From NCBI RefSeq assembly GCF_900474295.1, contig NZ_UCOB01000003.1, positions 124,001 through 188,000 of the forward strand: a stretch of DNA of 64,000 nt, given 5' to 3'. This stretch comes from Synechococcus sp. UW140. GTDB taxonomy: Bacteria > Cyanobacteriota > Cyanobacteriia > PCC-6307 > Cyanobiaceae. Position 1 is the first letter of the stretch. Each line of letters begins with the position of its first letter. The notes under the pieces were generated by a model that saw nothing but the letters and a program-made list of their open reading frames with translations, had not been told where the DNA came from and did no database searches. The position numbers and the translations under genes are program-made. Below, piece by piece: positions 57,327 to 61,756 of the stretch.

Positions 57327-59294
57327 GTGGCTGCGACTGAACCGCTGCTGACTCATGCAGAGCGCCTCGAGCGAAGGCTGAAGGAGATCCCTCCGGAGCC
57401 CGGCTGTTATCTGATGCGTGATCGCGAGGACCGCATCCTGTACGTGGGCAAGTCCAAAAGCTTGCGTAGTCGGGTTCGTAGTTACTTCCGTCATCGCAAC
57501 GATCTATCACCAAGAATTCGCCTGATGACCCGTCAGGTCTGTGAGATCGAGTTCATCGTGACCGATAGTGAGGCAGAGGCTCTGGTTCTTGAATCGAATC
57601 TGATCAAGAATCATCAGCCGCATTTCAACGTGCTCCTCAAGGATGACAAGAAATACCCTTACCTTTGCATTACATGGAGTGAGACTTATCCGCGGATCTT
57701 TATCACCAGACGACGTCGCTTCCGCAGCCCTTTAGATCGGTTTTACGGCCCTTATGTTGATGTTGGCCTACTGCGCCGCACCCTTTTTCTTGTCAAAAGA
57801 GTCTTTCCATTGCGCCAACGTCCTCGACCATTATATGCCGATCGCACTTGCTTGAATTATTCAATCGGCCGGTGTCCAGGGGTCTGCCAGCAGATGGTTA
57901 GTTCAGATGATTACCACCACACCTTACGGAAGGTGGCGATGGTTTTTCAGGGGCGCAGCGATGAGTTACAGACTCTGCTTTCTGACCAGATGACGCGGTA
58001 CGCGGAGCGACTTGATTACGAGTCGGCAGCAAGGATCAGAGATCAATTGCAAGGGTTAGATCAACTCACGGCAGATCAAAAAATGAGTTTGCCAGATTCA
58101 TCGGTTAGCCGAGATGTTCTGGCCTTGGCTAGCGACGAGCGTGTTGCTTCGGTTCAGTTATTTCAGATGAGAGCAGGCAAGCTTGTTGGCCGTCTTGCTT
58201 ACACCGCCGATGCTCAGGATCTTGAACCTGGCCAGATTCTTCAAAGAGTGATTGAGGAACATTACAGCCAGGTTGAAGCTGTTGAAGTGCCTCCTGAATT
58301 GCTGGTGCAGCACCCGATCCCTCAGCATCAGCTCATGGAGGAATGGCTGGCAGAACAACGGGAGCGAAAAGTGGTGATTCAATGTCCTCAGCGTCGTCAG
58401 AAAGCAGATTTGATTGAGCTGGTGCAGCGCAATGCAGAATTCGAACTTCTCCGTGCTCAGCAAGGACAAGAGCAGCAGGCCTTGGCGACGGAAGACCTTG
58501 CACAGTTGTTGGAGCTCCAAACACCTCCAAGGCGAATCGAGGGTTACGACATCAGTCATATCCAGGGCAGTGATGCTGTGGCATCGCAGGTGGTGTTCAT
58601 CGACGGTCTTCCAGCCAAACAGCATTACCGCAAGTACAAAATCCGCAGCAGCAGTATTCGCGCTGGACACAGTGATGACTTCATGGCGATGGCTGAGATC
58701 ATGCGCCGTCGTTTCCGGCGCTGGGCTCGGGTCAAAGCGGAAGGTGGCGACATCGCTGCCCTTCGCAAGACAGGAGGCAGTGCTCTTCAGACTGACGGAC
58801 TCAACGACTGGCCCGATGTCGTGATGATTGATGGGGGAAAGGGTCAGCTTTCAGCTGTGATGGAGGCTCTGCGTGAACTCGATCTGGTTGAAGATCTGAA
58901 CGTGTGCTCCCTAGCCAAGCAGCGGGAGGAAATCTTCTTGCCTGGCGAGAGTGAACCTTTGGAGAGTGAGCCTGACCAGCTCGGTGTGGCCTTACTCAGG
59001 CGATTACGCGATGAGGCTCACCGTTTTGCCGTCAGCTTTCATCGCCAGCAAAGGGGGCAGAGGATGAAACGATCACGGCTCTCGGATATCCCAGGGCTGG
59101 GTCCGAAACGAATCCGCGAACTGCTCTCTCACTTTCATTCCATCGACGCCATCCAGCTGGCGAGCTTGGAACAGCTGACGGCAGCACCTGGCGTAGGCCC
59201 TGGAATGGCACAGCAGATCAGGGCTTATTTTCACCCTGATCATTCCGATGACAATTTTCCTGAGCAGCACTCTGATCCCTGCCCTAATGCTTGA
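57327..59294 (+). CDS. Excinuclease ABC subunit C
   Basis: UvrC makes both incisions in nucleotide excision repair. The N-terminal GIY-YIG nuclease is [31 protein letters not shown], the UvrB-binding coil is around [22 protein letters not shown], then the RNase H-like C-terminal nuclease ([24 protein letters not shown], and [21 protein letters not shown]), and the final helix-hairpin-helix pair ([28 protein letters not shown]). At 655 aa it is full length. The start is GTG 57327. It overlaps the next small gene by 8 bp. Confidence 0.96.
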
Positions 59295-59616
59295 AAGAGG
59301 TTTAAAGCACCAGCTTGAATTCACCCTCAGACGTTGTTTTAGGGCTCTATTGTTGGTGATCATTGGCATCTTGCTGGTATGGCCATCCGAGGCTTTCGCC
59401 GCTCCAGGCTTATGCACTGGTCCGGTCTGCGCCGACGCGATCACAAGGAGTGCCAAAAACCATTGGCAATTGCTTTTGCGCCTCGAAGATCAACAGGGGC
59501 ATCGTGAAAAGGTTGTGATGGACTGCAAGGCAGGGGAGCTCAGTCCAATGGCAGGTCTCGTTGACCGCGGTTATGCCCGTGCTCTTGGCCTGAGACTGTG
59601 CCGATACGTGGCCTAA
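59287..59616 (+). CDS. Small secreted hypothetical protein (109 aa)
   Basis: Not recognised. ATG 59287 overlaps the uvrC stop by 8 bp. The first 25 residues are basic, followed by a hydrophobic stretch ([14 protein letters not shown]) and a likely signal cleavage SEAFA/APG. The mature part is about 70 residues with five cysteines (LCTGPVC, MDC, LRLC pattern) and basic/aromatic positions, suggesting a small disulfide-bonded periplasmic protein. An upstream in-frame start at 59248 would lengthen it into uvrC. No family is known to me. Confidence 0.6.
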
Positions 59617-59642: not shown

Positions 59643-61130
59643 TTGGACATCACTCTGATCTATCCACACCAATTGTTCTGTGACCATCCGTCGTTACGAC
59701 AAGGACGTGCCGTCGCTCTGATTGAGGACCCACTCCTGTTTGGAACCGATCCAAGCTCGCCAATGCGCATCCACCGCCAGCGGGCTCTGTTGCACCGAGC
59801 CTCGATGGAGTCCTACGCGGACGATTTGCGAGGCCAGGGCTTCGAAGTGATCGTTCAGCGCCACCATCTCGCGAGGCAAAGCAGCGGTCATCTAAGGATT
59901 CTCTGGAACAAGGGTTATCGCTCGTTTTATATGGCTGATCCGGTGGATCATCGCCTGGAGCAAAGGATTAAAACGACAATCACAGAATTTGGCGGGAACC
60001 TTCAGCAGGCTGAGACGCCAATGCTATTAACGCCCGAATCAGTATTGAACGATTACTTTTACCAGGGTCGGAAACCGTTGATGGCTGGTTTTTATGCCAT
60101 GCAACGCAAACGCATGAATGTTTTGCTCACACCTGAAGGCACACCCCTGGGTGGTCAGTGGAGTTTTGATGCTGACAACCGCAAGCGACTGCCGAAGGGA
60201 ATCTGTGTTCCGACGGAACCCCAATGCGATCACAACAATCAGCTTGGCGATAGTCTCAGGCAGCTGGAGAACGAAGGCTTAACACTTGTTGGATCCGCCG
60301 ATCGCTTCATCTACCCAATTAATCACCGCCAAGCGGCTGCTTGGCTGGATCAATTTCTAGACGAACGCTTTTACCACTTCGGTGACTATGAGGATGCTAT
60401 TAGCAGTCAACACCGGGTGCTTTGGCATGGGGTGCTCACACCGATGCTCAACATCGGTTTGCTCACACCAAGTCAAGTGCTGAAGCGTGCACTGGAGGTC
60501 GCTGAAGATAGGGCCATCCCTCTTAATTCGTTGGAGGGATTTGTCCGCCAAATCATTGGTTGGCGTGAGTTCATCGCCGCGATGTATCGCCACCATTCTG
60601 ATCGAATGCGCGACACGAATTTCTGGAATTGTGACCAGAAGCCGATCCCAAGCGCATTCAGCAATGGAACCACCGGAATAGTGCCAATCGATGATGCCAT
60701 TCATCATGCTCTTGATACCGGCTGGTGCCATCACATTGAGCGTTTAATGTTGATTGGTAACATCATGTTTCTGTGCAGCTTTCACCCTGATCGTGTCTAT
60801 CAGTGGTTTATGGAGATGTTCGTGGATGCCTATGACTGGGTGATGGTTCCAAATGTCTACGGGATGAGTCAGTTCGCTGATGGAGGCCTGTTCACAACAA
60901 AGCCCTATCTCTCAGGTTCGAACTATGTGCGCAAGATGTCCAACTACGCCAAGGGACCCTGGTGTGAGATTTGGGACGGGTTGTTTTGGAGTTTCGTTGC
61001 ACGGCATCAGCAATTTTTCCGCGGTCAGCCCCGCTTAGCGATGATGGCCCGAAACCTTGATCGGATGGCCCCCGACACCCTGAAGAGCCATCAACAACGG
61101 GCATCACAGTTTCTTGACGAGTTGAGCTGA
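59643..61130 (+). CDS. Cryptochrome/photolyase family protein ((6-4) photolyase-like)
   Basis: A 495-aa protein of the FeS-BCP/PhrB-type photolyase family (deoxyribodipyrimidine photolyase-related). Key stretches are HHIERLMLIGNIMFL (about 363), DAYDWVMVPNVYGMSQFADGGLF (about 395-417, FAD region) and the C-terminal KMSNYAKGPWCEIWDGLFWSF. In canonical members a [4Fe-4S] cluster is held by four Cys including a C-x2-C after this SNY motif; here the first of these is Ala436 and the loop is shortened, leaving Cys441, and possibly Cys330, as remaining ligands. A DNA-repair or light-sensing role is assumed from the family. The start is TTG 59643. Confidence 0.85.
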   Translation: MDITLIYPHQLFCDHPSLRQGRAVALIEDPLLFGTDPSSPMRIHRQRALLHRASMESYADDLRGQGFEVIVQRHHLARQSSGHLRILWNKGYRSFYMADPVDHRLEQRIKTTITEFGGNLQQAETPMLLTPESVLNDYFYQGRKPLMAGFYAMQRKRMNVLLTPEGTPLGGQWSFDADNRKRLPKGICVPTEPQCDHNNQLGDSLRQLENEGLTLVGSADRFIYPINHRQAAAWLDQFLDERFYHFGDYEDAISSQHRVLWHGVLTPMLNIGLLTPSQVLKRALEVAEDRAIPLNSLEGFVRQIIGWREFIAAMYRHHSDRMRDTNFWNCDQKPIPSAFSNGTTGIVPIDDAIHHALDTGWCHHIERLMLIGNIMFLCSFHPDRVYQWFMEMFVDAYDWVMVPNVYGMSQFADGGLFTTKPYLSGSNYVRKMSNYAKGPWCEIWDGLFWSFVARHQQFFRGQPRLAMMARNLDRMAPDTLKSHQQRASQFLDELS

Positions 61131-61165: not shown

Positions 61166-61756
61166 ATGACCCTCCCAGCCGAGGCCTACCTGTGGTTCAA
61201 GACCCTTCACATCGTTGGGGTTGTGGTGTGGTTCGCCGGACTCTTCTACCTCGTGAGGCTTTTTATCTATCACGTGGAAGCCGAGGAGCTATCGGCTGAG
61301 TTGAAAGGCCCCTTTCAGCAGCAGTACTGCTTGATGGAGCGTCGCCTGGCCAACATCATTACCACCCCTGGAATGGTTGTGGCCGTTTCCATGGCCGTCG
61401 GCCTCTTGATCACGCAACCAAGTTGGCTGCATCAGGCCTGGATGCACGCAAAACTTGCCTTTGTCGCCGCGTTACTGGCCTATCACTGGTTTTGCTATCG
61501 GCTGATGGGCCAGTTGCAACGTGGTGAGTGTCGATGGAGTGGACGACAGCTACGAGCACTCAATGAACTTCCCACCCTGCTCTTGGTGATTGTGGTGATG
61601 CTTGTGGTGTTTAAAAATCAGTTCCCGACAGGAGCTGCCACCTGGTTCATGGTTGCGTTGGTGGTGTTCATGGCCGCGTCAATACAGTTTTATGCACGCT
61701 GGAGACGGCTTCGTCAGGAGGCTGCCGCCACGAGCTCCGAAGCCAATGTCGGCTGA
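61166..61756 (+). CDS. Protoporphyrinogen oxidase HemJ
   Basis: Oxidises protoporphyrinogen IX to protoporphyrin IX for heme and chlorophyll in most cyanobacteria. The 196-aa membrane protein has four helices; the first carries YLWFKTLHIVGVVVWFAGLFYLVRLFIYH with the essential conserved His, and the middle MERRLANIITTPGMVV and QAWMHAKLAFVAALLAYHWF hold further conserved His and Arg. It sits in the plasma/thylakoid membrane. It overlaps the downstream PHP gene by 11 bp. Confidence 0.94.
   Translation: MTLPAEAYLWFKTLHIVGVVVWFAGLFYLVRLFIYHVEAEELSAELKGPFQQQYCLMERRLANIITTPGMVVAVSMAVGLLITQPSWLHQAWMHAKLAFVAALLAYHWFCYRLMGQLQRGECRWSGRQLRALNELPTLLLVIVVMLVVFKNQFPTGAATWFMVALVVFMAASIQFYARWRRLRQEAAATSSEANVG

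Follow-up and report, generated by a model that had tools for sequence, protein, structure and literature searches.

The closest described systems are the prokaryotic (6-4) photolyases that bind a [4Fe-4S] cluster (FeS-BCP photolyases) and their cluster-free relatives, among them Phr2 of the marine Synechococcus strain RS9916, which we presume to be a member of subcluster 5.1. Because the available part of PMC9426592 describes Phr2 of subcluster 5.1 as cluster-free, we treat RS9916 Phr2 as cluster-free, given that membership. The same text equates Phr2 with the cluster-free PromaPL (citing a 2019 paper in FEBS J.), states that most picocyanobacterial Phr2 lack the Cys, and places RS9916 phr2 downstream of uvrC. 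It also reports that UV-B survival of the RS9916 phr2 mutant was approximately 1,000-fold lower, and that E. coli carrying phr2 survived UV-B nearly 10 times better in the light, with no gain in the dark. Cluster-free Phr2 was predicted there to act on CPDs owing to the missing cluster, whereas PMC9178010, in the part available, lists PromaPL as a 6-4 photolyase and includes it in subgroup M, which is without the four Cys. Among the FeS-BCP homologues studied in PMC4619345, 7% were without the Cys according to the available text, which also relates that the PhrB cluster is assumed to be necessary for protein stability; the accessible portion of PMC12082625 assigns the cluster in prokaryotic (6-4) photolyases a "yet unknown function".

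We examined a window of 64,000 nucleotides from Synechococcus sp. UW140, in which the gene at 59643..61130 (plus strand; 495 aa, TTG start) was assigned as phr2, encoding a cluster-free prokaryotic (6-4) photolyase of the PhrB-like, PromaPL/Phr2 type. The reading frame is free of internal stops and can be extended upstream by one codon (496 aa), and no strong ribosome-binding site was seen by eye ahead of the gene. The protein matched PF04244 (3.9e-44) and PF03441 (1.4e-7), both above the curated cut-off, and the solved-structure sequences that it matched were all of the PhrB type (8/8). An AlphaFold2 model built from a 46-sequence input (pLDDT 93.4) aligned with PhrB (4DJA) over 485 residues (Z 49.4, rmsd 2.0; VIA-align, with Foldseek also run), and its top ten PDB entries, at Z 44.2 to 49.4, were all PhrB-type; Z fell to 30.3 for the next class. 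The predicted model conforms to the PhrB fold over its whole chain, and by sequence and fold comparison the protein is closer to PhrB-type enzymes than to CPD photolyases. The initial annotation had proposed a PhrB-like protein that may fold without the cluster: the identity holds, given the two domains and the match to 4DJA, and the folding is supported by the model scores together with the cluster-free state seen across the clade. phr2 is under purifying selection, with a dN/dS of 0.14 against UW105 (0.04 for uvrC and 0.03 for hemJ in the same comparison), a value from one unsaturated pair, since synonymous sites were near saturation against L033 and no value was computable against L032. With this ratio and no stop codon, a pseudogene reading was rejected.

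Compared with marine Synechococcus Phr2 and Prochlorococcus PromaPL, as described in the available parts of PMC9426592 and PMC9178010, the window protein lacks the same four Cys and its gene occupies the same place after uvrC; no substantial difference was seen, and the window gene is a further species' copy. It fits the definition of subgroup M (a prokaryotic 6-4 type that lacks the four Cys) and the placement of Phr2 (a cluster-free clade, split 100/100 from cluster-bearing genes, with uvrC upstream), PromaPL and RS9916 Phr2 being not identified among our alignment and tree rows. The protein is an ordinary, functional and already known Phr2/PromaPL photolyase without the cluster, in print by 2022. 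With the FeS-BCP photolyases compared, namely Agrobacterium PhrB (4DJA), Rhodobacter CryB (3ZXS), the enzymes of V. cholerae (7YKN, 8A1H) and Caulobacter (9HNK), and S. elongatus SePhrB (8IJY), the window protein, a PF04244 member, shares the fold and the columns of the catalytic His and lesion-binding Tyr, but it differs in lacking the cluster ligands, in a loop shortened by 10 residues and in having E366 instead of Gln, with 28 to 31% identity. The discussion of PMC9426592, taken literally, mentions a V. cholerae Phr2-like protein without the Cys (which may mean C. gracile); section 5 of the same paper, in the part available, and the solved chain 7ykn, whose Cys are visible in the alignment, give V. 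cholerae the Cys.

In the MAFFT alignment, PhrB ligand C350 falls on P348 of the window protein (codon 60684..60686, plus strand; position computed from the residue number), C438 and C441 fall in the 10-residue deletion, and C454 falls on E442; a HMMER alignment to PhrB instead sets A436 near C438. Residues 436–443 (AKGPWCEI; 60948..60971, plus strand) form the shortened loop that replaces the C-x2-C ... C ligand loop. Its lone Cys (C441 in the window numbering) pairs with an Ala one column before PhrB C454, that is, in a non-ligand column. No ligand column holds Cys (0/4), and the four cluster-binding Cys that define FeS-BCP proteins are absent. As all four columns are without Cys and C441 lies off the ligand column, the site is absent rather than partly kept. 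The initial annotation had read the segment, Ala436, the shortened loop and the single loop Cys correctly, and its account of ligand loss stands for the loop; it had not located the first PhrB ligand, C350, which is gone as well.

This pattern was uniform among 193 aligned rows (MAFFT; the window is one of the 144) divided according to the E or Q of the HHI(E/Q)RLM motif: the four ligand columns were all Cys in 49/49 Q rows and never Cys in 144/144 E rows, with no intermediate row, and the C350 column was Pro in 144/144 cluster-free rows. E366 (60738-60740) places Glu where Gln stands two residues past the catalytic His; in the 193 rows the E366/Q368 contrast is the split criterion itself, and splitting on it reproduces the Cys pattern exactly. 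In a separate grouping by locus lists, compiled after inspecting an earlier alignment, the letter was E in 112/112 cluster-free and Q in 16/16 cluster-bearing rows. The 193 rows omit the own-genome copies L001, L113 and L133, L115 (treated as identical to the L036 record), the partial or broken L097, L109, L162 and L177, L110 (unknown residues), L131, L132 and L164 (other own-genome places) and everything shorter than 440 aa; L020 and L178 represent a single gene that entered the count twice, and further named or unnamed records may overlap. Cluster-free rows came from Synechococcus and relatives, Bacteroidetes, Planctomycetes, Verrucomicrobia, Pelagibacteraceae and others, a spread that is a sample because the scan retained the best 80 of 120 relatives; the 49 cluster-bearing rows were all cyanobacterial. 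Binding of a cluster by other conserved Cys was rejected: among columns with Cys in at least 30% of cluster-free rows, those of C362, C378 and C441 held Cys in 73, 114 and 101 of the 144, none being invariant, and were without Cys in the 49 cluster-bearing rows. The alignment with PhrB and homologues that the initial annotation had proposed as a check thus revealed no four conserved Cys elsewhere, the other Cys columns being variable. Judged from the alignment, the cluster-free state is a fixed clade-wide trait.

The putative active site is retained. H364 (codon 60732..60734, plus strand), aligned with the catalytic H366 of PhrB, and L368, M408, Y422 and Y428, aligned with PhrB L370, M410, Y424 and Y430, are identical in 193/193 rows, and the catalytic His and the two Tyr that mark the PhrB-like group are present as H364, Y422 and Y428. 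D176 and D251, invariant in the 46 rows of alignment A1, align with PhrB D179 and D254, the two Asp of the Mg2+ sites. The PhrB counterparts of H364, L368, M408, Y422 and Y428 are needed for (6-4) repair or pack against such residues, as given for PhrB, including the role of H366, in the available part of PMC4619345. In the proposed mechanism, blue light would excite reduced FAD, directly or via an antenna pigment; the excited FAD would give an electron to a (6-4) photoproduct that Y422 and H364 hold in place, and H364 would protonate the lesion before the electron returns. The metal-free short loop (KGPWCEIWDGLFW) would fill the place of the [4Fe-4S] cluster, and such a loop in that place would make the cluster dispensable for folding and repair in this branch. 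The packing of the loop, like the chemistry, is conjectural. Synthesis of 8-HDF by this cell is doubtful, because no match to CofG above the cut-off was found in its genome (34.2 vs 213.35 bits).

phr2 is bordered upstream by uvrC (57327..59294, plus strand) and downstream by a UPF0093 gene (61166..61756, plus strand), which we take to be hemJ. A small ORF of 122 aa without a Pfam match (59248..59616, plus strand) lies between uvrC and phr2, so that the gene order reads flavin reductase, uvrC, small ORF, phr2, hemJ and PHP gene. The small ORF overlaps the end of uvrC, and similar ORFs adjoin both photolyase forms as well as empty slots (L215, L217). Among 22 other loci with enough flank in the window's genus and genus g5 (L111, L112 and L114-L130 lying outside this count, with flanks too short), the cluster-free gene was found between uvrC and hemJ in 21, and the exception, L034, had no hemJ match. 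The 34 cluster-bearing loci of the same family, classed by HHIQRLM (all four Cys confirmed in 33; L162 is partial), had both uvrC and hemJ in 19 cases, uvrC only in 4, hemJ only in 8 and neither in 3, many flanks being short. Since both forms are found between uvrC and hemJ, one slot holds either form. Cluster-bearing Phr2 of related genera (e.g. L134, L146) have the same slot and orientation as the window phr2, but they possess all four Cys, share approximately 31% identity with the window protein and fall on a separate branch of the tree.

We found a PF04244 match in 82 of 151 family genomes, which were an even draw from a larger group. Among the 70 read outside the window's genus, 34 carried the cluster-bearing and 36 the cluster-free form, and none carried both, a complementarity whose counts are inflated by kinship; G075, G120, G138, G161, G177 and G186 are PF04244 genomes outside the 70. 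Genera g6, g54 and g68 each include species of either kind. A second PF04244 match occurred in two genomes, G100 and G186; that of G100 (L177, on C17) is a broken second cluster-free copy beside an intact one. In the remaining 30 cluster-free genomes that were read from other genera than the window's, the cluster-free gene did not have both uvrC and hemJ as neighbours. For 15 of them both uvrC and hemJ could be traced: the matched parts are separated by 78 to 452 bases in 13 genomes, and a 1.9-kb gap in G103 contained an ORF that looks reductase-like by eye. G150 (L214, G150:C1:1175900-1195800) has the cluster-free gene in the 20.6-kb stretch that separates uvrC from hemJ, perhaps on an inserted island.

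A tree of 95 rows (careful search; unrooted, with no outgroup; the long-branched L017 and L102 left out) split cluster-bearing from cluster-free genes at 100/100. The family's cluster-bearing genes formed one group (100/100) adjoining L011 (97/94), which is S. elongatus-like by eye. Cluster-free genes of Synechococcus and Prochlorococcus-like members (Syn+Pro; 100/96) grouped with two Verrucomicrobia rows (L038, L040; 100/99), and those of the other genera branched elsewhere, together with Pelagibacteraceae and Phycisphaeraceae rows (98/87). In the AU test, a clade of Syn+Pro and the family's cluster-bearing genes was rejected (p 2.2e-57), as was a single clade of the family's cluster-free groups (Syn, Pro and other; p 0.0096), whereas a topology uniting Syn+Pro with all cluster-bearing rows against the rest was not rejected (p 0.173); these p-values are somewhat flattering because a first tree had already guided the naming of the groups.

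Which lesion the enzyme repairs has been a matter of disagreement. An assignment of cluster-free Phr2 to the CPD photolyases, as predicted in PMC9426592, with (6-4) repair left to cluster-bearing Phr4/Phr5, would agree with the strong UV-B sensitivity of the phr2 mutant and the phr4 loss visible with UV-C and not with UV-B in the available text of that paper, and a phr4/phr5 pair is present in the window's genome. We regard it as unlikely: the prediction was based on the missing Cys, the His is kept in 193/193 rows and its replacement by the CPD-photolyase letter (H366N) abolishes (6-4) repair by PhrB (PMC4619345, available part), PromaPL is given as a 6-4 photolyase in the accessible text of PMC9178010, and the two forms substitute for each other across the family, which fits the same job. 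Because the His is kept and PromaPL is described as a 6-4 photolyase, (6-4) repair appears likelier than CPD repair for cluster-free Phr2. The initial annotation had instead seen an apparently decayed cluster site, in a protein that may fold without its cluster or serve a non-repair function, which here would be a cryptochrome-like one. All four ligands are indeed missing, and of the photoreduction Trp, W390 of PhrB is kept as W388 but W342 is replaced by S340. However, W342 is also missing in 32/49 cluster-bearing cyanobacterial rows, and, whichever the form, almost every row has F in the column of PhrB Y391 and M in that of E403; as these changes occur in both forms, they are not tied to cluster loss. 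The cluster-free state is common to 144/144 such rows, dN/dS is 0.14, the catalytic and lesion-binding residues are kept, and RS9916 phr2 gives UV protection in the light according to the mutant and E. coli data in the available part of PMC9426592, so a decayed or non-repair protein is very improbable. Nor is "degenerate" an apt word: the state has become fixed throughout a large clade, the gene is under purifying selection, and a clade with the family's own cluster-bearing genes was rejected.

A further scenario, in which the resident gene diverged and lost its cluster without leaving the slot, after which picocyanobacteria passed the cluster-free form on to other phyla, also seems highly unlikely, if marginally less so. 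The slot and orientation shared with the cluster-bearing gene would suit such a history, as would the unrejected topology that places Syn+Pro alongside the entire cluster-bearing set, but the rejected clade with the family's own cluster-bearing genes argues against it, and in the unconstrained tree Syn+Pro are nested among cluster-free rows from other phyla. We infer that the window phr2 is not a decayed resident copy and that a homologue from another lineage replaced the resident between uvrC and hemJ; very probably, the window gene encodes a cluster-free (6-4) photolyase of the subgroup M/PromaPL type standing in the resident's place. For the family as a whole, we lean slightly towards replacement of the native [4Fe-4S] form at least twice by cluster-free homologues from other lineages, once within the slot (in Synechococcus), with none of the 70 genomes holding both; this would be a natural test of the role of the cluster, and marine Synechococcus may have gained an iron-saving repair enzyme.

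The less expected observation is that the cluster-free gene occupies the very slot where related genera keep the iron-sulfur version. We found no account of an exchange of forms in the uvrC-hemJ slot in a limited literature search that included the available part of PMC9426592, where the word "horizontal" does not occur; "horizontal gene transfer" occurs twice in the available part of PMC9649867. The slot exchange is a modest evolutionary addition and the part worth keeping. Cluster-bearing and cluster-free enzymes that trade places in one slot offer a clean comparison for the role of the cluster, and they bear on the published disagreement over the substrate of cluster-free Phr2, CPDs or (6-4) products. 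An explanation by iron sparing was set aside, as cluster-free forms also occur in Chryseobacterium and lake Planctomycetes, and the window's genome retains the Cys-bearing phr4.

The window's genome (G000) contained three FAD_binding_7 matches, namely phr2, a class I type and phr4 (L131 on C5, L132 on C8, L133), compared with four in 17 of the 18 other genus members searched at ≥ 99% completeness and three in the UW105-like G011; both G000 and G011 are draft genomes. A Phr1-like query matched only the C5 gene in this genome, and phr1 is reported in all marine Synechococcus in the available part of PMC9426592. On the minus strand of L206 (G000:C8:2000-5000), phr4, with its FAD domain and many Cys, overlaps phr5 in a different frame, an arrangement resembling the split reverse-order photolyase described in the accessible text of PMC9426592.
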